Origin: Aquisalimonas sp.
GTDB lineage: Bacteria > Pseudomonadota > Gammaproteobacteria > Nitrococcales > Aquisalimonadaceae
Direction of reading: 5' to 3'
Length of the DNA stretch: 14,774 nucleotides
Assembly: GCA_007127625.1 (NCBI GenBank)
Contig: SKYZ01000175.1
Span: 1-14,774, forward strand
In this document: positions 722 through 13,630 of the stretch, piece by piece
How the letters are laid out: every line of letters starts with the position of its first letter
Numbering within the stretch: the stretch's first letter is position 1
Program-made: the position numbers and the translations under genes
Notes under the pieces: model-generated
The model's database searches: none
Told to the model about the DNA's origin: nothing
Seen by the model: only the letters and a program-made list of their open reading frames with translations

Positions 722-796
722 TGTCGTTGTAGCACGACGCCCATGTGTGCGGTGGCGAACAGAGGCTCGGTGTCCTAGCACTCAGCATCAACGATA

Positions 797-814
797 CGCC
801 CGATCGTTCGGGCG
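797..814. repeat. Perfect inverted repeat (7-bp arms, 4-base loop)
   Basis: CGCCCGA (797-803), TCGT, TCGGGCG (808-814). The arms pair perfectly. It is not followed by a T-run, so it is not a standard terminator. It lies between the sigma-54-like site and the autotransporter start and could be an operator or a leader hairpin. Confidence 0.5.
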
Positions 815-927
815 CAGTCATCGCAAAGCTGACAGGGACGTCCCACTGCGCGCGCACGTGCATTCAGGCACGTCAGGGCGAGAGGGGACAAGCAGCCGGT
901 CAGGCGAGCGCGTACTCGGGGGAGCTT

Positions 928-3219
928 ATGGTACTGCAGCAATCCGCACGACTCGTAGTTTCCCTTGCCGTTACCGCCCTGGTTACCACCGCATGTTCAT
1001 CCGGCGGCGGCGGTGGAGGCGGAGGTATCGGGGATTCCGACTCCCTGCCCTGGGGAACCAAGGATGGCCATCTGGACAGGGTCAATCTCCCGCCAAGGGA
1101 AGAGTTGGAAGACCAGTTCGACGGGCGTGGCGACTTCGCCGCCGACCAGACCATCGCGATTCTCAGTACCGACCTGGGCGAGGAGCACACGGAGTACCGG
1201 ACCGAGGATGGCAACGGGAGCCGGATCAGTGGTAACAGTCGTCGCCTTTATGAGGGAGCCGACAACGTGAGTGGGCGCGCGGTCAATCCTGGCAATGCCG
1301 TGGCGAGTCTCGCTGCCGGCCGAGAGTTCGGTGTCGCGCGGGATGCGACCATCCTCGGGGTGGGTGTCGTGCAGCCGGAAGGTTATCAGGATAGACCTGG
1401 CGGCGGGTTTGATCTCACCATCAAGCCGGAAGACATGTTGAGTGGCATCGATCATGCCAGAGGCAATGGCGCCGATGTGCTCGCCATCCACTCTGTGGTA
1501 ACGGATCCGGATACCACCCAGGCGCAGGAGCTTGGGGCAAAGATTAGCGAGGCCCAGGATGACGGAATCATCGCTGTCGTGCCTGTTCCCGTCGAGGGCG
1601 AGCTTCGCGACGACAACGGGAATAGCATCGGGGTGGACGCGACCACGGAGTTCGACTCGGCCACGATGGATCGGTTGCTCGTTGTCGGCGGGATCAAGTC
1701 CGATGATTCCCGTCCTGACGGGGCCGGTCTGCCGCACTCGGATAGCCGCGACCGCTTCATTGTTGCGCCCGGAGACCCTGTGTTCGCGGCGTTCGGCAAC
1801 GACAGCGCCGACGCCCAGTATGCCGGCCCGTTTACGGCAATGGGGCTTGTCTCCGGTGGGGCGGCGCTCCTTAACAGCTATTACGAGGATGTAACCGGCA
1901 GCTCGCCCACGCCGAAGGATGTTGCCGACCGTTTGCTGGCTACAGCAGACAAGTCCTTCTCTGGCTATGATCCGGATCAGCACGGCCAGGGCGTACTGGA
2001 CATGCGGGAAGCGTTGACAGCCCAGGGCGCGCTGACCCTGCCCGGCATGAGCAGCACGTCGGTCCGGAACACCCAGATGGAGTTGAGCAGCGCCTTCGGC
2101 GATGCCCTGACGGGCCAGGACGCGCTGGCGGATGTCCTGACCTTCGATTCCACCGACTGGCCGTTCCGGGTGGACTTGCGCTCTCGGGTCCGGCAGCAGG
2201 AATCACGGTACCTGGACCGGCACATGGACCGTCTCGCCAACATGGGGCCGCAGTACGCCGAGAGCACGCCCTACGGCGGGTATCAGATCACCAGTGGCCA
2301 ACCGGCGGGTTTCGCCCACGGCAGCTACCAGCGGGGCTACGAGTCCATGTCGCTGTGGGTGGACCAGGGGCCCTGGACGATGACGCTGCAAAGCCATGCT
2401 GACCCGTATCTGGCCACGGCGTATCAGAGCATGCCGCAACTGGACGGCCTGCGCCTCATGGGGGGTGGCCCCGGCCGGGCCCACATGGCGAGCTGGCGGG
2501 AAGCCAGCGGAGCATCCCTGGCCTGGTCCCTGGGGGATGCCTTGACCGTCGGTAGTCAGGTATGGACGGGGCGCGATGGCGAGAGCCGCTACCAGTCGCT
2601 GGAGGACGCGCCCCGCGTGCATCGCGCCGAGGTGATGGCGTCCGTCCGGCCGTACTCCGGGGTCACGCTGGGCGTCGATGTTGCCCGTCAGTATCAGCCG
2701 GAGGGCCTGTTCGGCAGCTCTGGATCGGCCGGATTGCAGCCGGGCGGCGGCGCGGATACCACTGCTGCCGGCGTCACGCTGCAGTGGCAGGCACTGGCGC
2801 CGCTGACGCTGTTCTCCCGGTATGAGCACGGCTGGACGGAGGTGGATGGGACCGGCGGGCTCGTCAGCGACTTCGATCGCCTGCAGACGCAGTCCACGTC
2901 CATCGGCGGTGTCTGGGAGGACGCCTCGGCGAAACGCTGGGGGCTGGTGTACAGCCAGCCGCTGCGGGTGCGCTCGGGTGATGTGCAGCTCTCCGTTCCC
3001 CATGCCCTGGACGGTAGTGACGGGGTACAGTTTCAGCGTTACTCGGTGGATGCCTCGCCCTCTGGCCGCGAGCAGAACTTCGAGGTATTCCTGGATATGC
3101 CCCTGGAGGCCCGCCAGAGCGCGGTGCGCCTGAACCTGCTGTATCAGCTCGAGCCCGGGCACGTGGCGGATGCCGCGCCTGCCTGGGGGGCTGCGGCCGG
3201 GTATCAGACGCGCTTCTGA
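928..3219 (+). CDS. Lipoprotein autotransporter with inactivated subtilase-like passenger (pseudoprotease)
   Basis: A protein of 763 residues. The ATG at 928 is chosen because GGGGGAG lies just before it and it yields a lipoprotein signal peptide (hydrophobic residues 8-22, then TTA-Cys23) followed by eight glycines, as in NalP/SphB1-type autotransporters; a GTG at 745 in frame would bury this signal. Residues 75-365 follow the peptidase S8 fold: TIAILSTDL (75-83), NPGNAVASLAAG (120-131), GVARDATILGVGV (135-147), GADVLAIHSVV (181-191), FTAMGLVSGGAALL (302-315) and a closing GQGVLDMREAL (353-363). The expected catalytic Asp is Ser80, the HGTH His is Pro121 and the GTSMAAP Ser is Ala304, so protease activity is very unlikely. 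Residues from about 410 to 763 look like a beta-barrel translocator and end in Phe. It converges on the nucleotidyltransferase gene with a 42-base gap. The family and topology are well supported; the role (binding, adhesion or scaffold) is unknown. Confidence 0.85.
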   Translation: MVLQQSARLVVSLAVTALVTTACSSGGGGGGGGIGDSDSLPWGTKDGHLDRVNLPPREELEDQFDGRGDFAADQTIAILSTDLGEEHTEYRTEDGNGSRISGNSRRLYEGADNVSGRAVNPGNAVASLAAGREFGVARDATILGVGVVQPEGYQDRPGGGFDLTIKPEDMLSGIDHARGNGADVLAIHSVVTDPDTTQAQELGAKISEAQDDGIIAVVPVPVEGELRDDNGNSIGVDATTEFDSATMDRLLVVGGIKSDDSRPDGAGLPHSDSRDRFIVAPGDPVFAAFGNDSADAQYAGPFTAMGLVSGGAALLNSYYEDVTGSSPTPKDVADRLLATADKSFSGYDPDQHGQGVLDMREALTAQGALTLPGMSSTSVRNTQMELSSAFGDALTGQDALADVLTFDSTDWPFRVDLRSRVRQQESRYLDRHMDRLANMGPQYAESTPYGGYQITSGQPAGFAHGSYQRGYESMSLWVDQGPWTMTLQSHADPYLATAYQSMPQLDGLRLMGGGPGRAHMASWREASGASLAWSLGDALTVGSQVWTGRDGESRYQSLEDAPRVHRAEVMASVRPYSGVTLGVDVARQYQPEGLFGSSGSAGLQPGGGADTTAAGVTLQWQALAPLTLFSRYEHGWTEVDGTGGLVSDFDRLQTQSTSIGGVWEDASAKRWGLVYSQPLRVRSGDVQLSVPHALDGSDGVQFQRYSVDASPSGREQNFEVFLDMPLEARQSAVRLNLLYQLEPGHVADAAPAWGAAAGYQTRF

Positions 3220-3261: not shown

Positions 3262-4392
3262 TTACCGGGCCCAGGGCTCGGCGGGGTCTTGCTCGCCGAA
3301 CAGAGGGACAACCACGCTTTTTTGCAGCACGTGCCGGGCGAGCAGGGGCAGCGGCATGCGTAGCCAGTGGCCGCGTAGGAATATGGCGGCCCCGGCTGCC
3401 CATTGTCCCGGTGTGAGCGACGCATCAGGGAGGGTTGGCACGAGCAGCCGCCGATAGCAGGCGTCCAGTATGCGTTGTGTCGCTGCCCCTGGCCCGGCTG
3501 TCGCCATGTCGGAACTGCAGGGCGCGGGCACCGGGGTGCCCAGAAACTGCTGGCAGTAGCGCAGGGCAAGAAACGTTGGCAGTTCCAGGTCCAGTTCCCG
3601 CGCGCGCACCGGGAGCGTAGCCCAGAACGTCGGGTTGTCGCCAAAATGGCGCAGCAGCGCGTCCAGGTCCAGAAGATCCCGGAAGCCGTGGGGAATCTCG
3701 CCTTCGACGAACAGATGGGTCGCGCTGTGAATGACCATGTCCTCGGGTGCCAGCACGGCCAGGCTATCGTCTTCCGGGAGCGTTCGGGCAGCGCACAGCA
3801 AGGCATCCGGGTTCGGGTGGAACCGGGCCGTCTCCGGGAGAATGGTGTGGTGTACATCCAGGGTGGAGCCGCGCTGCGGGTGGCGCAGCGGCGGCAGTTC
3901 ATGCATCCATTCCCGGTAGTACCGCTGGTCGTAGCTGCCGTGATGGCTCGCGAGCCAGCCGGCCCAGTTCAGGCGCGCCTCCACCTGCCCCAGCACCTGC
4001 CGCGGTACCAGGATATCGATGTCGGAGAACTGGCGACCGTGAGCAGGAGGCAGTCCGGTGAATGCGTAGGCCGCGCCCTTGAGCAGCACGACCCGGGAGG
4101 TCACGCCCCGCAGCAGCTTGAGCAGGTAGGCAACTTCCCGGCCGATCGCCCGCCGCTGTGCTTCCGCCGCGATCCACGCGGACTCCAGGTGGGCCGCCGG
4201 GCCGTTCGGTATGGTTGTCAGCGCGCCCGCCTCTTGCGCCACCCAGTAGAGCCGGCCGAGCAGATTGAACTCCCGCCCCGTGGCGATGATCTGTTCCCAG
4301 GTGCGCGGGTCTATCTGCTCCGCGCGCTCGGGGGCGCGGAACAGGGAGATCAGCTCACGGCCCGGGTGACTACTGTCGCGCGATCTGGGCAT
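3262..4392 (-). CDS. Nucleotidyltransferase-fold protein (PF14907-like), cassette 1
   Basis: A protein of 376 residues and the last gene of cassette 1. The ATG at 4392 overlaps the end of the kinase gene by 23 bases; the paralogue of cassette 2 (8639-9772) starts with exactly the same overlap, which supports this start. The core is VVLLKGAAYAFTGLPPAHGR followed by QFSDIDILVPR, the LKG...DxD signature of the NTP_transf_5 family, with putative metal-binding Asp124 and Asp126. A block YDQRYYREWMHELPPL (154-169) followed by TLDVHH (177-182) and ILPET (184-188) is almost identical in the paralogue and probably marks the substrate or partner site. The C-terminal part is helical and shares FLRGHWL-MP with the paralogue. 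By family it may transfer a nucleotide or use ATP, but no reaction is established. It is soluble, with no signal peptide seen. Confidence 0.85.
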   Translation of the reverse strand: MPRSRDSSHPGRELISLFRAPERAEQIDPRTWEQIIATGREFNLLGRLYWVAQEAGALTTIPNGPAAHLESAWIAAEAQRRAIGREVAYLLKLLRGVTSRVVLLKGAAYAFTGLPPAHGRQFSDIDILVPRQVLGQVEARLNWAGWLASHHGSYDQRYYREWMHELPPLRHPQRGSTLDVHHTILPETARFHPNPDALLCAARTLPEDDSLAVLAPEDMVIHSATHLFVEGEIPHGFRDLLDLDALLRHFGDNPTFWATLPVRARELDLELPTFLALRYCQQFLGTPVPAPCSSDMATAGPGAATQRILDACYRRLLVPTLPDASLTPGQWAAGAAIFLRGHWLRMPLPLLARHVLQKSVVVPLFGEQDPAEPWAR

Positions 4393-5290
4393 GCAGTTGC
4401 CGGATGAGTGCCTTGCCGTCGTCCATTGTACCGTACTGGAGATCGTAGGCCGGTACACGAGTGACGAGGCTGGACGCCAGCCGGAACCCGCTTTCCCCGA
4501 GAATCTGGTAGTTGAAGCTCTGGTTCACCAGGGCGAGAAAAGTTTCATGGGGCGCTCGCGGGGTAAAATCTGCCGTCGCACCGCGCCGGAATCGGGGGAA
4601 GAAGATTCCTGCCGCCGTGCCCCGCTCCTCTCCGCGCCGGATGCTGTCGGCGTCCGGCCGCAGATGGGCCACGAGGCCCTTGGTCGTATCCCGCACCTGG
4701 TGCCCCACGACGGCGTGGTCATGTGCCCTCTGGATGATGGCGATGGCATCGTTTTTCAGCCCGACGGGGCGCGGAAATGGCTGAACGGATCCATCCTGCG
4801 CATCCAGCAGAACCAGTTCGTCGGTCAATAGGCGCCAGCCGGAAAGCATCAGGCTCGCGACCAGAGTGCTCTTGCCGCTGCCCGATTCGCCGGGAAACAA
4901 ATAGGTCAAGCCGTCTTTCTCCGCTGCAGCCGCATGGACCACCAGATAGCGGTGCATGCCTGACGACACGCACCAGTTCATGCCCCATTCCAGCATGGCC
5001 AGGGCGTGATGCGCGGGGAGGGGCAGAAACGGGGCAGTGGTGCCCAGATAGAACTGGGCCTGAGGTCGAATCCAGCGCCTGGGGCCAGGCGGTGCATCGA
5101 TGCGTACCCGGAAATCGGCGAATTCGTCCAGTTCGAGTACCGGGTAGTCCGCGTACGCGGCCGGCAGCCCCTGGTGGATTGCCGGCATGCGGGAGAGGAT
5201 CCGCATGCCCAGCGAGCCAATCCGCAGGCCGAGGCCGTCCCCTTGCAGGCGGGTTTTTACTTCGGGCGCGGGCAATGTCCCAACGGTCAT
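4370..5290 (-). CDS. HprK-related kinase A, cassette 1
   Basis: A protein of 306 residues, close to the usual length of the HprK-related kinase A family (about 300). The ATG at 5290 overlaps the PqqD-like stop as ATGA. The start is confirmed by alignment with the cassette 2 copy (MTVGTLPAPEVKTRLQGDGL against MTLIDLGESTVQERLRGEGL). An N-terminal part of unknown role contains EWGMNWCV (101-108), identical in both copies. It is followed by VVHAAAAEKDG and a complete Walker A motif GESGSGKST (134-142), then SGWRLLTDELVLLD with the acidic pair Asp157-Glu158 that replaces the HPr kinase P-loop-downstream acidic site. GLKND, AHLRP and FNYQILG later in the chain are shared with the paralogue. It lacks the N-terminal HPr kinase domain. 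Likely a cytoplasmic ATP-dependent kinase whose target may be the neighbouring PqqD-like or exported protein; this is inference. Confidence 0.88.
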   Translation of the reverse strand: MTVGTLPAPEVKTRLQGDGLGLRIGSLGMRILSRMPAIHQGLPAAYADYPVLELDEFADFRVRIDAPPGPRRWIRPQAQFYLGTTAPFLPLPAHHALAMLEWGMNWCVSSGMHRYLVVHAAAAEKDGLTYLFPGESGSGKSTLVASLMLSGWRLLTDELVLLDAQDGSVQPFPRPVGLKNDAIAIIQRAHDHAVVGHQVRDTTKGLVAHLRPDADSIRRGEERGTAAGIFFPRFRRGATADFTPRAPHETFLALVNQSFNYQILGESGFRLASSLVTRVPAYDLQYGTMDDGKALIRQLHAQIARQ

Positions 5291-5583
5291 ACGCCGGGGC
5301 ATTGTTCCACTATTCCTGCCTGGTGGAGATCGTTCAGGAACTGCTCCGCCACGTCCGGATCCTGAAGCAGTGCCTCGGCGCACGCGTGGCTGATCGCCCG
5401 AGCGGACAAGGGCTCGCCGTCGTGGCTCAACAAAGCCATGACGAGGTGGCCGGCCGGCGATGCGAGTACATGGGTGTTCTCGTCGCGCCGCGAGAACACC
5501 AGCAGGCGGTCACCGGCCCAGCAGGTAACCAGCGCATCGGCCGGTATGCGATAGTACGGCGATGCGCCTTGAGTTTCAGCCAC
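5287..5583 (-). CDS. PqqD-like protein of the HPr-rel-A set, cassette 1
   Basis: A protein of 98 residues. I prefer the GTG at 5583 because the preceding gene ends in TAG whose last base is the first base of this GTG, and the paralogue in cassette 2 also starts with GTG at the same place relative to the domain. Another GTG at 5628 would add 15 residues and overlap the upstream gene by 46 bases. The chain has the PqqD layout: short strands (YRIPADALVTCWAGDRLLVF), then ASPAGHLVMALL helix, a connecting segment, and a C-terminal helix FLNDLHQAGIVEQ typical of winged-helix PqqD proteins. PqqD relatives bind leader peptides for modifying enzymes. No radical SAM partner is seen here, so its client is probably handled by the kinase and nucleotidyltransferase next to it. 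Confidence 0.75.
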   Translation of the reverse strand: MAETQGASPYYRIPADALVTCWAGDRLLVFSRRDENTHVLASPAGHLVMALLSHDGEPLSARAISHACAEALLQDPDVAEQFLNDLHQAGIVEQCPGV

Positions 5584-6449
5584 TATGCAAAGTTGGCCGG
5601 GTTGTAATTCCGGGCATCCAGCACACACGCTTGATCGTTGGCCTCGGCGAGCTGCTCGGTGAGTTCCTCCAGCGCCGTTGTGTCCGCCATGTTGCTGTTG
5701 AATGCCGCTTGCGGCTCACGGGAGCTTATCCGCGACTGCCCGGTAATGACGTCGTCGTTACGCCCGTTACCGGATCTGGGAGCCTGGTCGCCACCGCCAC
5801 TGCCGTCGAGGCTTGCCTGGTAGCTGCTATACGCTCTCCGGAACTCGTCAGCGATCATGTCGCGGCTGTACATTCTCAGGCCGTTAACGCTGAACCCGTC
5901 GGAAAGGACAGGGTGGGATGCATTGAGGTACGCAGCGGTTACCTGTGCCATGCACTGGTCCACTATCGAGTTGGACGCAGGATTGACCCCGGCGACCCGG
6001 GCCGTCGACCCACCCCCCGAGAGCGCTTCGAGGAGTGTGAAATCACTCCCGACGAGCAGGGCCGCAGGCCCGCTGCTCTGTTCTCGGTTTCGGTTCATGC
6101 CGAAAACCTGTGCAAAACTCGATTCCGGGAGAACCCCACAATCCTGCCAGGCCTGGTACCACTCCCGGCTGCCCGCCGGATTGACGTGCCCGTCACCCCG
6201 CCAGAACGCCACGGAGCACCCGAGGGCGCAGCTTTGCACGCCCGGATTCAGCGAGGTGTTGGCAGAGGCTACCGCGGAGCCACTGCAGTCGGCGGCCCAG
6301 ACAGGCCGGTGAGCGAGAGTCATGACCACGGGGATGCCACCCGCCAGACCTTGCGTCAATCGGCGCCGGCCCTGATCCACCTGATCGAGCGTCCGGTCTG
6401 ACTGCGATGCAGAGCGCTGCTCTTCGATCTGTCTATCCTTGCTTGTCAT
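5583..6449 (-). CDS. Secreted Cys-containing protein, putative substrate of cassette 1
   Basis: A protein of 288 residues leading cassette 1. The ATG at 6449 has GGGGTGG four bases upstream. The N-terminus is polar and long (27 residues), then GRRRLTQGLAGGIPVVMTLAHRPVWAA, a Tat-like or Sec signal with likely cleavage near residue 52. The mature part has six cysteines (55, 74, 78, 104, 166, 275). It matches the pattern of exported proteins with a CTxGYWK-like domain: VQSCALGCSVAFWRGDG (71-87), a Trp-containing stretch, FAQVFG, LLEALSGGG and AAYLNA (172-177). The cassette 2 leader gene shares QSC, W-GD, VF and AAYLNA and the final P-x-x-F-A. Residues 210-255 are a Gly/Ser/Asn/Asp-rich linker followed by a short helix, absent from the paralogue. 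The family name is my recognition of the pattern, not a search result; function is unknown. Confidence 0.72.
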   Translation of the reverse strand: MTSKDRQIEEQRSASQSDRTLDQVDQGRRRLTQGLAGGIPVVMTLAHRPVWAADCSGSAVASANTSLNPGVQSCALGCSVAFWRGDGHVNPAGSREWYQAWQDCGVLPESSFAQVFGMNRNREQSSGPAALLVGSDFTLLEALSGGGSTARVAGVNPASNSIVDQCMAQVTAAYLNASHPVLSDGFSVNGLRMYSRDMIADEFRRAYSSYQASLDGSGGGDQAPRSGNGRNDDVITGQSRISSREPQAAFNSNMADTTALEELTEQLAEANDQACVLDARNYNPANFA

Positions 6450-6781
6450 GGAACCACCCCTTTCGAAACGCAACCCGATCCCATTATGTATGATGCCACT
6501 CTTCCTTAAAGACCAGCACACCGAATCGGGAGCATTCGCTCACCAATGGTCTTCAACTGCTCTAAATTAATGCAAGAAATACGCCTCATCGCCGTGCATG
6601 GCCGTCTGACGCCCTTTCCGGCCCGCCCGTGGCCATCCTGGTCCGCACGGGCCAATCGCGTCGCCCGGTTTCCAGGACGGAGTGACAAAAATGCTGACAC
6701 CGGGTTCTTTTCCTGGCGCTTGCTGCCATACTTGTAGATCAGACTGAGGTCCATGGGAAGCGTCTCTCACCAAGGTGGAGC
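6450..6781. promoter_or_regulatory. Divergent control region between the two cassettes
   Basis: A 332-base region between the two divergent leader genes (starts at 6449 on the minus strand and 6782 on the plus strand). It is visibly richer in A/T at 6475-6580 than its surroundings. It holds a sigma-54-like element facing cassette 1 (6571-6586), and an inverted pair CCAGGA (6672-6677) / TCCTGG (6711-6716) on the cassette 2 side. A clear ribosome binding site AAGGTGGAG (6772-6779 region) precedes the ATG at 6782. I found no convincing sigma-70 promoter for cassette 2; CATACT near 6727 is a weak -10 candidate. No gene is supported here. Confidence 0.6.
6571..6586 (-). promoter_or_regulatory. Candidate sigma-54 promoter for cassette 1
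   Basis: On the minus strand the site reads AGGCGTATTTCTTGCA: GG and GC separated by exactly ten bases, with a complete TTGCA. The -24 half is a weaker match to consensus than the one at 706-721. Transcription would start near 6560, about 110 bases before the ATG at 6449. Confidence 0.25.
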
Positions 6782-7417
6782 ATGAGCGAGAATAAGCAGG
6801 TTCACGGAACTGGCAAGCCCGGTAGTGAGGCGACGAACGCCACGGATGCGGCTGATCGGCCTGCAAGCTGGTCACGACGTCGATTCGGCGTCGCCGCAGT
6901 GTCCACCTCGGTCATCGTTGGCCTCCACTCACAGCCCCTTCGCGCTGCTGGGGGCGGTGGCAACTGCACCCCTTCGGGGTGGGTGTCGGGCAATGTCTCG
7001 CTTCACGGTGAAGCGCAGTCCTGCGGCGGCATGACGCCGGAGGCCTGGGCGGGTGGTGATCCCCCGGCCGAACGTGAGCGGTGGGCCGACGCACACTTTA
7101 ACAGTGTCTTTAAAGGTACACCGCCTTACTCGGTCGAGGAGTCAGGCGATCCGGCCACGATGCTCGATGCCGTGAGTCAGGACGTCAGGCTCGGCAGTGT
7201 GGGTGATATGGAGCGACAGGTCATCCGGCTCGGCGCTGCCGCGTATCTCAATGCAGAGTATCTCGTCTACCCGATGACTCCGCAGACCGTCATCGAGATG
7301 GTCCGCCCGACCCTGGTCGATGGTCAGTACATAACGCAGTCGGGGGATGTGCTCAATGCGGAACAGGTTAAGGATTTCCTTGGCAACACCATGGAAGCTC
7401 CTGGCTTCTTCGCATAG
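6782..7417 (+). CDS. Secreted protein with Tat-like signal, putative substrate of cassette 2
   Basis: A protein of 211 residues leading cassette 2. The start is set by AAGGTGGAG one base before the ATG. The N-terminus is a 30-residue polar region followed by SRRRFGVAAVSTSVIVGL, a good twin-arginine motif, with cleavage likely after LRAA near residue 56. The mature protein begins with four glycines and NCTPSGW (61-67), then QSCGGMTPEAWAGGD (79-93), a Trp/Phe segment ending in VF, AAAYLNAEY (152-160) and VIEMVRPTL. This is the same order of features as in the longer cassette 1 protein, so the two are paralogues. Only two cysteines (62 and 81) remain, against six in the other. The last residues APGFFA resemble NPANFA at the end of the cassette 1 protein. 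If Tat is used, the protein folds before export, which would allow a cytoplasmic modification by the cassette enzymes. This last step is inference. Confidence 0.72.
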   Translation: MSENKQVHGTGKPGSEATNATDAADRPASWSRRRFGVAAVSTSVIVGLHSQPLRAAGGGGNCTPSGWVSGNVSLHGEAQSCGGMTPEAWAGGDPPAERERWADAHFNSVFKGTPPYSVEESGDPATMLDAVSQDVRLGSVGDMERQVIRLGAAAYLNAEYLVYPMTPQTVIEMVRPTLVDGQYITQSGDVLNAEQVKDFLGNTMEAPGFFA

Positions 7418-7483
7418 TCGTAACGATGCCGCATCGCTCTGTTGTGACTGGTCTTCGTTGTCAGCGTAATAGGTCGGCGTCAG

Positions 7484-7753
7484 GTGACTGTCTATCTCGT
7501 CAATCAGGAATGCGATTTCCGTCCGATGGATGACGCCATGCTTATCTTCCACGGAGGGTCCGGCGAGACCTATCAGCTTGCCGGTGTGCCGGCATGTCTC
7601 GTTGCCGAATTGCTGCGGACTCCGGAAGCTTCGACGTTGGAGTCCCTGGTCATCCGCTTGAGTGACCCGGAGTCCCAACCCCCGGTCGTTCTTGTGGAGG
7701 AAGCGCTGGAGCAACTCCGAAAGGCCGGAGTAGTCTCGGTCCGCCATCCATGA
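7484..7753 (+). CDS. PqqD-like protein of the HPr-rel-A set, cassette 2
   Basis: A protein of 89 residues beginning with GTG at 7484; no other start is available in frame before the stop at 7445. The ribosome binding site is poor, so translation may depend on coupling. The gene starts 66 bases after the exported protein and its stop overlaps the kinase start as ATGA, as in cassette 1. The order of strands and helices matches the cassette 1 protein: VYLVNQECDFRPMDDAMLIF, a Gly-rich turn HGGSGETYQL, the helix CLVAELL, a central region, then VVLVEEALEQLRKAGVVSV, the typical PqqD C-terminal helix. Probably a small cytoplasmic binding or chaperone protein for the exported partner. The family is inferred from size, layout and neighbours. 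Confidence 0.72.
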   Translation: MTVYLVNQECDFRPMDDAMLIFHGGSGETYQLAGVPACLVAELLRTPEASTLESLVIRLSDPESQPPVVLVEEALEQLRKAGVVSVRHP

Positions 7754-8661
7754 CGTTGATCGACCTTGGTGAGTCCACAGTACAAGAGCGCCTCCGCGGC
7801 GAGGGGCTGATTCTGAAGACCGGGCCTTTCGCGGCTCGTATTCGTACCCGCATTCCAGTGGTGGCCGCCGCACTAATGCAGGTCTATCAGGATTTCCCGG
7901 TTCTGGATGCGTCAGCATTCGCCGATTTCGAATGCCACCTGCGCCGACCGTTGACGTTTCGCCGCTGGCACCGACCTCAGGTGCTGTTCCTCGCCGATGG
8001 ACGCAGCGTTTTCAAGCCGCTTCCCCTTCACCAGGCCTTTCCGGTGCTGGAGTGGGGTATGAACTGGTGTGTTGCGAATCAGGTGCATGACCGCCTGGTC
8101 TTTCACGCCGCCGCCGTCGAAAGAAACGGCAAGGCGCTGATCCTTCCGGCGCCGCCAGAGTCGGGAAAGAGCACCCTTTGCGCCGCCCTGGTTGCCAGTG
8201 GATGGCGGCTTATCACCGACGAATCAGTCTTGTTCGACCTGAGGCTGGACGAAGTCACCGGGCCGGTGCGCCCCGTCAGCCTGAAGAACGCATCCATTGA
8301 CGTGATCAACGACTTTGCGGGGAACGTCATGCTCAGTGACGTGTGTCGCGATACGCTGAAAGGAACGGTGGCCCACATGCGTCCCCCGAGCAGTAGCGTC
8401 GATCGCGCTGACGAGCCCGCAACCCCGGCGTGGGTCGTCTTTCCTGAGTACCGTGCCGGCGCGGCCACGTTGCTGAAGCCACTCGCAGCCGGAAGCGCCT
8501 TCATGCAAATCGTGAAGAGTGCCTTCAACTACCCGGCATTGGGGCGTCGGGCATTCCACCGCACGGCGGACTTGATCGACCAGGCGGATGCGTACACGTT
8601 CGTCTATAGTCGGCTGGAAGAGGCGATCGAGACTTTCGATGCACTCGCCGCTGGACGGTAA
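7750..8661 (+). CDS. HprK-related kinase A with variant P-loop, cassette 2
   Basis: A protein of 303 residues, paralogous over its full length to the cassette 1 kinase (shared EWGMNWCV, FHAAAVE, SGWRL-TDE, LKN, AH-RP and FNY-LG blocks). The ATG at 7750 overlaps the preceding stop as ATGA. The nucleotide-binding loop reads LPAPPESGKSTL: the GKST end (139-142) is intact but the first Gly of Walker A is Ala134, with two prolines behind it. The acidic pair Asp157-Glu158 is at the same number as in the paralogue. The family is known to have PP-containing loops, so the enzyme may still bind ATP, perhaps with different geometry. The last 23 bases overlap the start of the nucleotidyltransferase gene. 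Likely a cytoplasmic kinase with an unknown target. Confidence 0.86.
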   Translation: MTLIDLGESTVQERLRGEGLILKTGPFAARIRTRIPVVAAALMQVYQDFPVLDASAFADFECHLRRPLTFRRWHRPQVLFLADGRSVFKPLPLHQAFPVLEWGMNWCVANQVHDRLVFHAAAVERNGKALILPAPPESGKSTLCAALVASGWRLITDESVLFDLRLDEVTGPVRPVSLKNASIDVINDFAGNVMLSDVCRDTLKGTVAHMRPPSSSVDRADEPATPAWVVFPEYRAGAATLLKPLAAGSAFMQIVKSAFNYPALGRRAFHRTADLIDQADAYTFVYSRLEEAIETFDALAAGR

Positions 8662-9772
8662 TCAAGCGCTTAGGCTCGCGCTCGCACGCCCGGAGTCCAT
8701 GACGGAGAGAACGCCGGCGGAATGGACGGTGCTCGTCGCCGCGGCGCGGGAAACCTCACTGCTCGGGACCCTATGGAATCTGGCGACGCTTGCCGGTGTG
8801 GCTGAGCGGTTGCCCGAGCCTGTGGGAAGGCATCTCTATGGTGGGTTTCTGAAAGCGGACCGCAATGCAGAAGCCATTCAATGGGAACTGCAGACTCTCC
8901 AGTCCGGGATGCTCCAGCGCCTGGATCCGCCGGTTGTTCTGAAGGGTGGCGCCTACCTGTTGGCCGGATTGCCCAATGCGTCGGGGCGGATTTGCAATGA
9001 TGTGGATCTGCTGTTTCCGCGCGCTGATCTGGAAAGGGCAGAGTCGTTGTTGTTCTTTGAAGGCTGGGGCACCACGCATCACGATCCCTACGACCAGCGC
9101 TATTATCGCGAATGGATGCATGAGCTCCCGCCGCTGGAGCACTGGCGTCGGGGAACAACGCTGGACGTTCACCACAACATCCTTCCCGAAACGTTTGCAG
9201 TGCGGACCGATCCGGTGCGCCTTCTCGCATCAGCGTGTGACCTTCCCGCACCCTGGCGCTACCGGGTGCTGCGTCCGGCGCACCTGGCGCTGCACGCGAT
9301 TGTACACTTGTTCTCCGAGACTGAATGGGATCGCGCCCTGCGTGACTTGTACGATATCAAGGTCTTGCTGGAACACTTCGGAGGGCGGGGGGGTGATTCG
9401 TTCTGGCGTGATCTCGTCGACGAAGCCAGCAGCCTCGGGGTGACTTGGCTGGCGGCGTATGCGCTGGATTGCTGTGAACAAAGTCTGCATGCAGGGGTTC
9501 CGCTTGAGGTGCGTGAAGCGCTGTTGGGGAGTCGGATAACGACGCTCAAGCGGAGAGCCGCACGGCCGCTTTTTCTGCACGGATTGAATACCCGTGCCTC
9601 GGCAACGCCGAAACGAGACAGCGTGGCACGTGCACTACTCTTTCTGCGAGGGCATTGGTTGAAGATGCCCCCGCGGCTGCTCGCGCGACACCTGTTCTAC
9701 AAGGCGTTTCTGGCCCCGAAGGAAGACGTGACGAACAGCCGTACAGATCCCGCAGGCGGAGGGGTTCGATGA
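8639..9772 (+). CDS. Nucleotidyltransferase-fold protein (PF14907-like), cassette 2
   Basis: A protein of 377 residues, full-length paralogue of the cassette 1 protein. The ATG at 8639 gives a 23-base overlap with the kinase, the same as in cassette 1. The signature is VVLKGGAYLLAGLPNASGR followed by ICNDVDLLFPR with Asp121 and Asp123 as the likely metal ligands. YDQRYYREWMHELPPL (151-166), TLDVHH and ILPET are the same as in the paralogue. The C-terminal FLRGHWLKMPPRLLARHL (335-352) is also shared. The stop overlaps the start of the outer-membrane protein gene as ATGA, so here the cassette continues into one more gene. Soluble and cytoplasmic by appearance; the reaction is unknown, nucleotidyl transfer being the family expectation. 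Confidence 0.85.
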   Translation: MHSPLDGNQALRLALARPESMTERTPAEWTVLVAAARETSLLGTLWNLATLAGVAERLPEPVGRHLYGGFLKADRNAEAIQWELQTLQSGMLQRLDPPVVLKGGAYLLAGLPNASGRICNDVDLLFPRADLERAESLLFFEGWGTTHHDPYDQRYYREWMHELPPLEHWRRGTTLDVHHNILPETFAVRTDPVRLLASACDLPAPWRYRVLRPAHLALHAIVHLFSETEWDRALRDLYDIKVLLEHFGGRGGDSFWRDLVDEASSLGVTWLAAYALDCCEQSLHAGVPLEVREALLGSRITTLKRRAARPLFLHGLNTRASATPKRDSVARALLFLRGHWLKMPPRLLARHLFYKAFLAPKEDVTNSRTDPAGGGVR

Positions 9773-11580
9773 AGCGCAATCGGTTTTCCGGGCTTTGCCC
9801 GTGGGGTGGACTTTTTCTCCTGGCGCCAACCCTGGGGGCGGCCGACCAGTGCTTGCCTCTGGAACAGGCCGAGCAGCAAGCAGAAGCGTATCAAAGTGAA
9901 GGTCGGGATGTGATCGTTGCCTCTCACACCTGTCCGCAGATGTCGTACGCGGTACTGATCGGAGGGCTGGCGGGGGAGGAGGAACAGCACGAGGCCATCG
10001 CGCGGCTTGGGGAAGAAGGCATTGAGGCAGCGCCTGCGGCCGGTACATCCGTCTGGGTGGGCGAGTTCAGGCACGAAGACGACGCCGAAGACAGGCTCCT
10101 GAACATGCTCGGATACGGCTTTCGCTCGATCGAGATCGTCTACAAGGAGGAGGAACTCAGGCTTTATCAGGTGGTTGCTGCGGACGATGCGCCACCGGAA
10201 CCGGATGTTGATCGGGAGCGCCATTCGGCGGATGAGCCCGAGTCGTTCACATTTGGCGATGATGACGACGAGACCCAACCCGAGACCGATGACCGGACCG
10301 ATGACAGCGACGTCGCCTGGGACTTGGACGATCTCCGCTTGACAAGTGGTTATCTGCCGAGCGGCGATCAACCGGTGGAAACCTACCTTGACGGCACTAT
10401 GAGTGCTTCGCTGCGTTGGCAGCCGGCGGGCCCCTGGGAACTCAGGGCTGGCGCGCGGTTTGATGCGCAATCGCAATCGGCGCGGCCTGACGACGATGAC
10501 GATGTCGCCACAACGTGGGGCGCGGCCGACTATACGGAGAACTGGGTTCGATATCGGGCCAATTGGGGACGGCTTACGGCGGGGACCCAGACCGTTTCGT
10601 GGGGGGCAATGGATTTTCTTCCCCCGGGGGATCGGCTCAGTGCGCAGGATCTGACCCGTGGGCCCCTGGAGTTCATCGATGACAGCCGGCGAGCGAGTCC
10701 GTCCCTGCGCCTCCAAACGTATGGTTCGATCTCGCTCGACCTGGTGCTGACTCCGGTCTTCCGGGCAGCCGAATTGCCGCGCCGGGAGACGCTCTGGCAT
10801 CCCGTGGACCAACGACGCGGCCGCCTGTTGGGTGTGCCGGATGATCCACGAGTTCGCACTCTGGTCCAACAGGGTACTTTCGACCACGAACCCAGAAGCG
10901 CCGAGCGAGATTCTGTGGGAGGGATGCGATTAATCGAGTCAAGACGCTCCTATGATGTCGGCGTGACTGTCCAATCCGCCCGACGCAGTGCCCCGTATTA
11001 CGCGCTCAGTGATCGCGCCCGGGAGGCTGCTCTGGAGGGGGATCTGGAAGGGGCTGTTCAGGCGGATGGAGACACATTTATTGCCAGACATCCGCGCGCG
11101 TTGATCATTGGCGGGGACTACACTCTGGACGCCGTCGGGGCGACCTGGCGCCTGGAAGGCGTATGGTCCAGTGACGAGCCGGCGACCCGCGAGGATGATC
11201 TTCGCTTCGTCACGCGATCGGGTCTGGATTGGGCTGCCGGTGTCGAGTTCTTTCCCGGCGATGGCGACCTGCGCACCTCGCTCCAGTTGACAGGCCAGCA
11301 CCTGCTGGATGCAGGCGACGTGCTTGACCCGACGGAAACCTACCAACTGGGGGGCGAACTCGAGCAGCCTTGGGCACGCGAGCGTTGGCACACACGGCTC
11401 CGATTCAATGTCGGGCTGGATCGCACCGATGTCTATATCAATCCTGAATTGGCATGGACCATCAGCGATGCTCATGAGGTGACGGTGGCGGGCCATTACT
11501 TTCGAGGCACCGATGACACCCTCGGCGGCTATTTTGAAGATCATCGCATTGTCACGCTTGGCTGGCGGCTTAGCCTTTAA
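9769..11580 (+). CDS. Outer-membrane beta-barrel protein with N-terminal SPOR-like domain
   Basis: A protein of 603 residues. The ATG at 9769 is chosen because GGAGGGG (9758-9764) precedes it, it overlaps the previous stop as ATGA, and it gives a signal peptide (residues 1-25, ending GAA). Residues 58-125 have two repeated strand-helix units (SYAVLIGGLAGEEEQHEA... and SVWVGEFRHEDDAEDRL...), the layout of a SPOR domain, which in known cases binds glycan strands lacking stem peptides. An acidic linker (140-190, with DDDDE and DDDDD runs nearby) leads into a barrel of roughly 400 residues with alternating aromatic strands; WGRLTAGTQTVSWGAMDFLP recalls DUF1302-like proteins. It ends with GWRLSL. 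It is co-expressed with cassette 2 and may be its surface or export component. The barrel is fairly sure; the SPOR and DUF1302 labels are inferences. Confidence 0.78.
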   Translation: MKRNRFSGLCPWGGLFLLAPTLGAADQCLPLEQAEQQAEAYQSEGRDVIVASHTCPQMSYAVLIGGLAGEEEQHEAIARLGEEGIEAAPAAGTSVWVGEFRHEDDAEDRLLNMLGYGFRSIEIVYKEEELRLYQVVAADDAPPEPDVDRERHSADEPESFTFGDDDDETQPETDDRTDDSDVAWDLDDLRLTSGYLPSGDQPVETYLDGTMSASLRWQPAGPWELRAGARFDAQSQSARPDDDDDVATTWGAADYTENWVRYRANWGRLTAGTQTVSWGAMDFLPPGDRLSAQDLTRGPLEFIDDSRRASPSLRLQTYGSISLDLVLTPVFRAAELPRRETLWHPVDQRRGRLLGVPDDPRVRTLVQQGTFDHEPRSAERDSVGGMRLIESRRSYDVGVTVQSARRSAPYYALSDRAREAALEGDLEGAVQADGDTFIARHPRALIIGGDYTLDAVGATWRLEGVWSSDEPATREDDLRFVTRSGLDWAAGVEFFPGDGDLRTSLQLTGQHLLDAGDVLDPTETYQLGGELEQPWARERWHTRLRFNVGLDRTDVYINPELAWTISDAHEVTVAGHYFRGTDDTLGGYFEDHRIVTLGWRLSL

Positions 11581-11713: not shown

Positions 11714-11821
11714 TGAGTTTCGTTGATCGTCGCTCTCCCACTGACACTGTCAAGGGTGCTTTCAGACGCTCATGCCAACCGGGCACAAGGCGTTTTGTTC
11801 TTATATCGGGGGTTCAAACGA

Positions 11822-12643
11822 ATGGATAAGCTGCCTTCGCTTTACCGCGATGTGCTGTCTGCTGAGGTTGCGTGTGATCCGGCAACGCAGGAGGACGCGT
11901 TCCGTCTTCGCTACCAGGTTTATTGCCTGGAGAGGGGCTTCGAGGATGCTTCGGCGTTTCCAGAAGCGATGGAAACGGACCCGCATGACATCTACGCCAG
12001 GCATTTTGTCGTCAGGAGTCGAAATGCCGGTTTGACACTGGGGGCCTCCAGGTTGGTTCTTGATTCGCCTTCCGGCGTGGGGTTGCCCATTGAAATGCAC
12101 GGCTCCATGAGCGTTGCCCGGCATATCGAGCGGGTACGCTCTAGGGAATCAACGAAACTGGCGGAGGTATCACGTCTCGCGGTGACGCGATGCTTACCGA
12201 CGTTGATCGATCAGCGGTCTGTCGCCCCGGCACCGGTGCAGTTCTCCGAGTTGCGTGACCACTGCTGCGCGCTTGAGGGTCCGACCGTGCCGCGCCTGCC
12301 TGTTCGGTCGTACCACGTCTCCATGGGGCTTCTGGCTTTGCAGTTTCAGCAGAGTTGGAGCGATGGGGTGACACACTGGGTCGCACTGTTGGATCAAGGG
12401 CTTCTGCGCTTCCTCAAGCGGGTGGGGATCCATTGCCAGCCAATCGGTCCAGTGCTCGCCCATCGCGGCTCAAGGCAGCCCGTGATGGGTGTGGTAACTG
12501 ATGTCTGGTCAGACGTTCGCAAGGAGGGTGTTGCGCTGGCGCGTCTCGTTGAGCAACTCGGTGAACAGGTTGCAACGGCGCAGGCAGGGATTGGTTCCGC
12601 CTTCGCAATGGGCGAACTGCGGAATGCATCCGAGCCAGGTTAG
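11822..12643 (+). CDS. PEP-CTERM/exosortase-associated acyltransferase (FeeM-like, GNAT fold)
   Basis: A protein of 273 residues. The ATG at 11822 follows a GGGGG stretch by nine bases and begins MDKLPSLYRD; the frame is open further upstream to a TTG at 11723, which adds no family sequence. The N-terminal half carries the family pattern: AFRLRYQVYCLERGFE (26-41), a Pro/Glu/Asp stretch ETDPHDIYARHFVV (51-64), LGASRLVL (73-80), LPIE (88-91) and EVSRLAV (115-121). This is the signature of the acyltransferase found with exosortase/EPS loci and related to N-acyl amino acid synthases, which use acyl-ACP or acyl-CoA. Length is normal for the family. It would act in the cytoplasm, possibly making an N-acyl amino acid. 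No exosortase gene is in the window. It stands alone between a terminator and a strong stem-loop. Confidence 0.88.
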   Translation: MDKLPSLYRDVLSAEVACDPATQEDAFRLRYQVYCLERGFEDASAFPEAMETDPHDIYARHFVVRSRNAGLTLGASRLVLDSPSGVGLPIEMHGSMSVARHIERVRSRESTKLAEVSRLAVTRCLPTLIDQRSVAPAPVQFSELRDHCCALEGPTVPRLPVRSYHVSMGLLALQFQQSWSDGVTHWVALLDQGLLRFLKRVGIHCQPIGPVLAHRGSRQPVMGVVTDVWSDVRKEGVALARLVEQLGEQVATAQAGIGSAFAMGELRNASEPG

Positions 12644-12757: not shown

Positions 12758-13630
12758 TCAGTCGATAATCGTCGATGCTTCTTCGGAGAGTTCGCTTACC
12801 AGTCCATTCTGATCGAAGACACGCACGGCGAAATAGTATCTTTCCCCGGACGTTAGCGAGTTGATGGTTGCCGAGTTGTTGATTAGATCCTCGACGACCT
12901 CGGTGTATTCCCCGCTTTCTTTGCCGTAGGCGACTTCGTAGTGGCTGACCTCGCTTGCGAGGAATGCCGAGCCGTCCTCGCGTGTCTCAGGCGTTTGCCA
13001 GGACAGGGTCACCTCGCCGCTGTTGTCGGTTCCTGAATCCTTATCCCCAGCGTCGTCGCCGTTGTCTGCGTCTGTATCGTCCTCCTTGTTACCGGAGTCA
13101 TTGTCGGCGTCTGAATCCGAGCCTTCATCGGTGTCGGAGTCCGAGCCGTCATCGGCGTCTGAATCTGAACCGTTATCGGTGTCGGAATCCGAGCCGTCAT
13201 CGGTGTTGGAATCTGAACCGTCACCGGTGTCGGAATCCCAACCGCCACCGGTGTCGGAATCCGAGCCGTCATCGGCGTCTGAATCTGAACCGTCATCGTT
13301 GTCGGAATCCGAGCCGTCATCGGTGCTGCCATTATCGGTTCCGGAATCGCTGTCTCCTTTGCCGTTTCCGGAATCATTGTCGGCATCTTCGTTTCCATTG
13401 TCGGCGTTTGTGTTGTCTTCCTCGTCACCTGAGTCACTGCCATTGTCAGGATCCGAACCATTGTTAGTGTTCCCACCATCCGTGCCTGTTTCATTGCTCC
13501 CGCCACCAGTGTTGCCATCATCATTCTCTTCGAGGCAACCAGCGAGCAGCAGAGACAAAGACAGTACAAGCACGGCGAAGAGGCGGCGAGCCCGCGTATC
13601 ACGGCTGGTGATAATGGTGGTTTCGAGCAC
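12758..13630 (-). CDS. Lipoprotein with Asp-Ser repeat stalk and fibronectin type III domain
   Basis: A protein of 290 residues. The start is a GTG at 13630 with GAGGAG six bases before it. Residues 14-31 are a typical lipoprotein signal (RARRLFAVLVLSLSLLLAG) with Cys32 as the lipidated residue. A very acidic, low-complexity region runs from 33 to about 203, with nine eight-residue units of the type DDGSDSDx at 104-175. Residues 205-290 look like one fibronectin type III domain (VTLSWQTP at the first strand, HYEVAYG in the middle, INSLTSGERYYFAVRVFDQNG near the end). So the protein would be anchored in a membrane by lipid and hold the FnIII domain away on an extended, charged, possibly calcium-binding stalk. 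The sorting residue at +2 is Leu, which would allow outer-membrane placement. The binding partner is unknown. Confidence 0.85.
   Translation of the reverse strand: MLETTIITSRDTRARRLFAVLVLSLSLLLAGCLEENDDGNTGGGSNETGTDGGNTNNGSDPDNGSDSGDEEDNTNADNGNEDADNDSGNGKGDSDSGTDNGSTDDGSDSDNDDGSDSDADDGSDSDTGGGWDSDTGDGSDSNTDDGSDSDTDNGSDSDADDGSDSDTDEGSDSDADNDSGNKEDDTDADNGDDAGDKDSGTDNSGEVTLSWQTPETREDGSAFLASEVSHYEVAYGKESGEYTEVVEDLINNSATINSLTSGERYYFAVRVFDQNGLVSELSEEASTIID
13106..13321 (-). repeat. Nine tandem 24-bp units coding for DDGSDSDx
   Basis: The stretch encodes nine consecutive eight-residue units (protein residues 104-175), for example DDGSDSDN, DDGSDSDA, DDGSDSDT, GGGWDSDT and DEGSDSDA. At DNA level the units are close but not identical, with alternating TCTGAA/TCGGAA-type variants suggesting duplication of unit pairs. 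Being in frame, gain or loss of units would change stalk length only. Confidence 0.85.

Follow-up and report, generated by a model that had tools for sequence, protein, structure and literature searches.

In a 14,774-nt stretch of an Aquisalimonas sp. genome (contig SKYZ01000175.1; hereafter, the window), two paralogous four-gene cassettes diverge from a 332-bp gap, and many Proteobacteria carry the four-gene set that they represent, most often alongside an exosortase elsewhere in the genome. Each cassette encodes, in the same order, a predicted exported leader protein, a PqqD-like RRE, an HprK-related kinase A (HprK_rel_A), and a PF14907 nucleotidyltransferase. By analogy with peptide-modifying systems, the enzymes of each set probably tag the exported protein with phosphate, and perhaps with a sugar, before its export. 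ORF and profile scans confirmed the gene order and the divergent arrangement claimed in the original prediction, with cassette M on the minus strand and cassette P on the plus strand. The source assembly is a draft MAG with 497 contigs totaling 3.04 Mb and a completeness of 83%. The annotated features of the window are as follows:

1-498: methyltransferase, C-terminal part; the same gene adjoins the P-type leader in relatives
745..3219, plus strand: autotransporter-like relative of subtilases, gene convergent to the M cassette; G280 counterpart 60.7% over 726 aa
3262..4458, minus strand: PF14907 nucleotidyltransferase, M cassette, 177 bits
4370..5383, minus strand: HprK-related kinase A, M cassette, TIGR04352 328 bits
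5287..5628, minus strand: PqqD-like RRE, M cassette, TIGR04353 29.4 bits, below the cut-off of 35
5583..6449, minus strand: leader M, putative substrate, predicted exported, twin-arginine signal (RRRLTQGLAGGIPVVMTLAHRPVWA), conserved C55, S58, and S62; from the family profile and neighbors
6450..6781, no strand: intergenic gap of 332 bp from which the two leader genes diverge
6571..6586, minus strand: predicted sigma-54 -24/-12 site AGGCGTATTTCTTGCA, 137 nt upstream of leader M, PWM 14.6 bits
6782..7417, plus strand: leader P, putative substrate, predicted exported, twin-arginine signal (SRRRFGVAAVS...), conserved C62, S65, and S69; from the family profile and AF2 model
7484..7753, plus strand: PqqD-like RRE, P cassette, TIGR04353 22.7 bits, below the cut-off of 35
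7750..8661, plus strand: HprK-related kinase A, P cassette, TIGR04352 372 bits
8588..9772, plus strand: PF14907 nucleotidyltransferase, P cassette, 161 bits; family alignment starts at 8660
11723..12643, plus strand: PEP-CTERM/exosortase system-associated acyltransferase (context), TIGR03694 144.8 bits, cut-off 112

The ORF of leader M extends beyond 6449 to 6521.

Both kinases and both nucleotidyltransferases scored above the cut-offs of their models (200 bits for TIGR04352 and 31 bits for PF14907). Both PqqD-like proteins fell below the cut-off of TIGR04353 (PqqD_rel_X), and their assignment therefore rests on their place in the cassette and on the family alignment. In that alignment, 28 of 29 members, hand-picked from 111, matched TIGR04353 at E≤1e−3, and a profile search with it matched the lasso RRE TbiB1, although a designed helical protein (E=3e−4) outscored the lasso RREs. 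The kinase alignment contained invariant H/K/D/E residues, and the PF14907 alignment contained an invariant LKG, DxD, and later D, which corresponds to the nucleotidyltransferase fold with DxD and a third Asp that defines the superfamily. Judged from these alignments, the catalytic motifs are intact and the PqqD-like proteins are RRE-like.

TIGR04352 was matched above its cut-off in 27 of 274 genomes of the class, 12 of 54 of the order, and 61 of 398 of the phylum (the genome of the window included each time), and in none of 14 control genomes. From 26 loci of the class, the loci of the order, 80 of 585 confirmed named contigs, and the window, we assembled 115 non-redundant cassettes. A leader gene lay upstream of the kinase in 112 of these, and the nucleotidyltransferase was present in 114, in 110 on the same strand. 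The three cassettes without a leader were L055, at a contig edge; L119, from a Nitrosospira MAG in which the PqqD was unreadable; and L149, where a first cassette without a leader is followed by a second with one. Among 20 more distant loci, most of them chosen from the lower-scoring entries among the 61 kinase-positive genomes of the phylum, a protein with an RR signal was found upstream in 18 and was not found at L224 or L239. These results support the proposition that an exported protein accompanies the three-enzyme set, as a nearly constant fourth gene in the loci examined.

The leaders, mostly 190-270 residues long, are predicted Tat substrates, with an RR pair, a hydrophobic stretch, and an A-x-A-like site; R occupied the two twin-arginine positions in 110 and 111 of 112 leaders. 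The consensus of class A runs from about 30 residues through RR[RK][LF]xKAG, a hydrophobic stretch, and TLxSRPVxA, and continues after the signal with C-x(2,3)-S-G-x-x-S-G-N-x-S, C-x-G-x-S-P-G-Y-W, and then a helical domain. The C-x(2,3)-S...S pattern was found in 103 of 114 class A leaders; a strict C-x-x-S close to the signal is not a general feature, occurring in 64 of 130 leaders versus 35 in shuffles, and neither is a C-terminal Ser conserved (15 of 107 class A leaders). Classes B and C retained the RR signal with different mature parts, and 14 of the 16 leaders in these classes, nine of which are near relatives of one another, carried C-x-x-[ST] within their last 26 residues. At L050, some 13 residues are all that follows the signal of the leader, whose gene may be truncated. 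In the AF2 model of leader P (pLDDT 78), residues 81-200 were confident (block means 86-98) and the Ser segment was lower (64-77), and no match to a solved structure was found. Leaders M and P matched no Pfam or NCBIfam family, and 74 leaders yielded no credible match in these libraries, each match being limited to a single member (best E 0.009). No PEP-CTERM model was among the matches, and inspection of the leader C-termini by eye showed no C-terminal PEP motif, transmembrane helix, or basic tail.

When the leader profile alone was searched, it matched 29 of 274 genomes of the class, and the matches covering both signal and domain occurred in 21 genomes, all kinase-positive. The six kinase-positive genomes without a full-length match comprised five with class B-type or short leaders and one contig edge. 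As for partial matches, that in G057 lay at its own kinase locus, G015 had a signal-part match at the kinase locus and a domain-only match elsewhere, the signal-part matches in G101 and G184 lay near weak HprK-like matches, and G080, G084, G099, and G215 had the mature domain alone and no kinase above the cut-off.

An exosortase was encoded in 25 of the 27 kinase-positive genomes of the class, the exceptions being G052 and G057, versus 59 of the 247 others, a comparison that ignores kinship. Within the flanking sequence available, an XrtA/EPS marker was present at 43 of 133 loci, as was a trypsin-like protease gene, also in 43 of 133, of which 25 were upstream on the same strand. The gene of PepA, an RpoN-dependent PEP-CTERM/exosortase floc-formation protein, has a mapped -24/-12 promoter (PMC9850573). 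The leaders resemble PepA in this promoter type (predicted for the leaders), a surface-related role (putative for the leaders), and the exosortase setting, but differ in lacking, by eye, a PEP-CTERM tail and in being accompanied by a kinase and a nucleotidyltransferase.

In its members (kinase, PqqD-like chaperone, nucleotidyltransferase) and in their order, the trio corresponds to the HPr-rel-A system (TIGR04352/TIGR04353 plus nucleotidyltransferase), a name used in a Sphingomonas plasmid record; the window passes the kinase and PF14907 cut-offs of that system but misses the PqqD-like one. In the Vibrio and Sphingomonas plasmid records, the leader is present as the gene before the set, with its RR signal, but it is annotated as "hypothetical protein." The closest working models, by analogy, are the lasso kinases and LppK, which all modify Ser and occur together with an RRE and an NTP transferase. 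In the Paenibacillus alginolyticus lpp cluster (PMC13381572), which makes linear polyphosphorylated peptides (LPP), LppK phosphorylates a Ser just after the leader, and the nucleotidyltransferase had no visible activity in a published test. The lpp cluster and the cassettes share a discrete RRE, an HprK-like kinase, an NTP transferase, the absence of a lasso cyclase, precursors with a conserved N terminus and a variable C terminus, an acceptor Ser after the leader (putative here), and polysaccharide loci. The lpp cluster differs in having its own SpI peptidase and MsbA-like exporter, and a YxxPxV motif in the leader, whereas the cassette leaders have a Tat-type signal, and most are longer precursors with a modeled domain. 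The RRE-binding motif of lasso and LPP precursors, [YW]xxPx[LVIFA], occurred in 0 of 130 leaders, so recognition must differ from that in those systems. No SpI-like peptidase or MsbA-like exporter was found among the 14 window proteins scanned, and the flanks of the other loci were sampled. The cassettes probably work in the manner of LPP systems, but the absence of the motif, and of such a peptidase or exporter among the window proteins scanned, bars their classification as LPP.

In lasso peptide tailoring of the paeninodin/pseudomycoidin type (PMC9266682), an HprK-like kinase and then a nucleotidyltransferase act on Ser, and PsmN is reported to decorate the phosphate with a sugar or a nucleotide. 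The cassette RRE resembles lasso B1 proteins, but the lasso kinases target a C-terminal Ser, which class A leaders do not conserve, and neither a macrolactam synthetase (C) nor a B2 leader peptidase was found among the 14 window proteins scanned. The statement in the original prediction that the trio has no established reaction calls for a caveat: activity has been published for this trio in lasso and LPP systems, although the LPP nucleotidyltransferase displayed none in the published test.

Because an RRE, an HprK-like kinase, and an NTP transferase constitute the lasso/LPP kit, we read the Tat signal as a RiPP-like leader and the Ser pair as the acceptor; the leader is probably the substrate, with its signal recognized and a nearby Ser modified. 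What we infer for these cassettes covers the substrate role, the acceptor, the sequence of steps, the nature of the second group, export by Tat, and the surface role, as follows. Each cassette would be a self-contained export-and-modification unit whose first gene encodes the substrate, with the twin-arginine signal region doubling as a RiPP-type leader. The PqqD-like RRE would bind this region in the cytoplasm, and the kinase would phosphorylate, perhaps polyphosphorylate, one of the near-invariant Ser pair just past the signal. In P the candidates are S65 and S69, in M they are S58 and S62. The nucleotidyltransferase would then add a sugar or a nucleotide to the phosphate, as reported for PsmN, after which the Tat pathway would export the modified protein and signal peptidase would trim it. 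Its likely workplace would be the exopolysaccharide/exosortase surface.

It is unlikely, by comparison, that the exported protein merely serves as a common secreted component of the matrix, with the enzymes co-regulated but modifying something else, such as a lipid, a PEP-CTERM protein, or the repeat unit of an EPS. The XrtA/EPS markers, the exosortase co-occurrence, and the occurrence of the mature domain without a kinase, for example, in a 1352-residue frame, all favor such a role. However, the leader gene directly precedes the RRE gene, and in both lasso and LPP systems the leader peptide is what an RRE binds. Furthermore, the mature parts of classes B and C differ, yet the RR signal and the RRE, kinase, and nucleotidyltransferase are kept, a pattern that recognition of the signal region would predict. 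A quite improbable alternative is that the kinase, which matched the HPrK/P profile weakly (E=5e−4), is a regulatory Ser kinase/phosphorylase like HPrK/P that senses metabolism and switches the cassette without leaving a stable modification; no HPr-like gene was found among the 14 window proteins scanned, the DD of HPrK/P is DE in the cassette kinases, and their relatives by context, PadeK, PsmK, and LppK, are peptide kinases.

If the leader is the substrate, each enzyme set may serve its own leader, as originally predicted. On the proposed check of leader trees against enzyme trees, leader and kinase distances correlated (Spearman 0.57; Mantel r 0.71, 0 of 999 permutations), as did kinase and nucleotidyltransferase distances (0.70). 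In 71 of 111 cases, the closest relative of a leader also ranked among the five closest to its kinase. Leader C-terminal types, assigned by our own patterns with 28 of 112 leaders untyped, changed 9 times on the kinase tree versus 19.6 when shuffled (0 of 500). Leader P is type i and leader M type ii, and the nearest typed relatives of each share its type. Leaders and enzymes are thus inherited together, which fits dedicated pairs; joint inheritance alone would give the same patterns, and co-inheritance does not demonstrate specificity.

The two cassettes are themselves old paralogues rather than a recent duplicate, since in blastp among the eight window proteins the M and P kinases shared 41% identity, the nucleotidyltransferases 40%, and the leaders 28% (E=0.001); the two PqqD-like proteins did not match within this set. 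Both leaders also matched leaders of third genomes, for example, L034. The description of the cassettes as duplicated therefore stands as paralogy and not as a recent, local back-to-back event. Apart from this stretch itself, a genome-wide DNA search returned nothing but short cross-matches of 75% identity between the two halves of the stretch, so the pair is not the assembly copy that had been named as a possible refutation.

The P cassette keeps a setting known from related genomes: its leader type adjoins the methyltransferase gene in seven related loci (L153, in G280; L154, in G279; L155; L157; L159; L161; and L073, in Thioalkalivibrio). In the window, the autotransporter-like gene and the M cassette stand between the two. 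In G280, of the same genus, the M-type cassette lies on a separate contig from the P-type (identities with M of the window: kinase 62%, nucleotidyltransferase 66%, leader 51%) and is likewise convergent with the autotransporter-like gene, which occurred in two of five same-genus genomes (that of the window included), both carriers of the M cassette. Given this separate contig, shared neighbor, and distribution, the autotransporter-like gene and the M cassette most likely entered beside P as a unit. In a quick kinase tree (SH-aLRT support only, several long branches flagged), the M kinase grouped with the M copy of G280 (100) and the P kinase fell among Thioalkalivibrio and relatives from the order (97). 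It is very improbable that the pair reflects a recent duplication in inverted orientation or a misjoin of the contig, even in a draft MAG of 497 contigs and with the two types on different contigs in G280, as the 40-41% identity rules out the former and the latter would need two independent misjoins, the M unit being bordered by the methyltransferase and the P leader, which are neighbors in relatives.

Among the 109 leaders with enough upstream DNA, 59 had a consensus -24/-12 site (at least 10 of 12 positions) within 300 nt, versus 0 of 109 in the reverse-complement control and 0.6 in shuffles. With a PWM built from 56 sites, the window excluded, 77 of 107 leaders exceeded the 99% shuffle level and none of the 107 reverse complements did, figures that are partly circular and in which related species repeat each other. 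The site facing M scored 14.6 and the next best anywhere in the window 6.2; no recognizable site preceded leader P (best PWM 2.7), although six of seven testable P-type relatives had one, and the M-type cassette of G280 had none. The "shared control region" is accordingly a 332-base gap with one recognizable sigma-54 site, facing M only. The window would thus hold P in its usual setting and M, probably arrived with the autotransporter-like gene, carrying the only recognizable sigma-54 site.

For a three-gene set to which NCBI has given no more than a system name, these results put forward a candidate family of substrates, and they turn an "unknown reaction" into one directly testable by mass spectrometry. 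If the proposed mechanism is true, RRE-guided phosphorylation, so far a matter of Bacillota peptides, also acts on Tat-type exported proteins in Pseudomonadota and is tied to exosortase/EPS biology. More tentatively, Tat signals across a wide range of Pseudomonadota might double as RiPP leaders read by an RRE, with the kinase and nucleotidyltransferase building a phospho-sugar on a Ser beside the cleavage site of a folded protein; once exported by Tat, this protein would be a sigma-54-controlled anchor or primer for exosortase-associated exopolysaccharide. In that case, the two paralogous units of a single genome would supply two anchors under different control.

Two genes of note lie downstream of the P cassette in the window, and a third stands beside the M cassette, with a counterpart at the kinase locus L164 of another genome.

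745-3219 (+), autotransporter-like subtilase relative; counterpart at L164:11967-14237 (-)
9655-11580 (+), large ORF that follows the P cassette
12758-13630 (-), gene encoding a long repeat rich in Asp, Ser and Gly, together with a fibronectin type III domain

The subtilase relative scored 69 bits against the mycosin model, below the cut-off, and by eye its catalytic His and Ser motifs were apparently replaced in both genomes. It is perhaps a pseudo-protease travelling with the M cassette. The large ORF gave an impression of being porin-like; it had no match in Pfam or NCBIfam and no relative at E ≤1e-10 among the other 132 loci.

A leader-profile search detected the mature SPGYW...LNA domain without a kinase above the cut-off in four genomes (G080, G084, G099, and G215), in one instance within a 1352-residue frame. 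Two further genomes carry pairs that perhaps represent a sister system, and one locus carries a short leader.

G101:C1:4579-6316, RR-signal leader-like match beside a weaker HprK-like match (65 bits)
G184:C15:50433-52107, RR-signal leader-like match beside a weaker HprK-like match (48 bits)
L050:4332-4553, 74-residue leader, with approximately 13 residues beyond the signal (AGSACISCNASLI)

The L050 leader is the shortest candidate substrate among those seen. Separately, a Thiobacillus MAG contains a tandem pair of kinase cassettes (L149:2629-8000), the first of which lacks a leader.

A gene for a trypsin-like exported protease occurred close to the cassette at 43 of the 133 loci, on the same strand and upstream in 25 of these, and its product is a possible processing enzyme.
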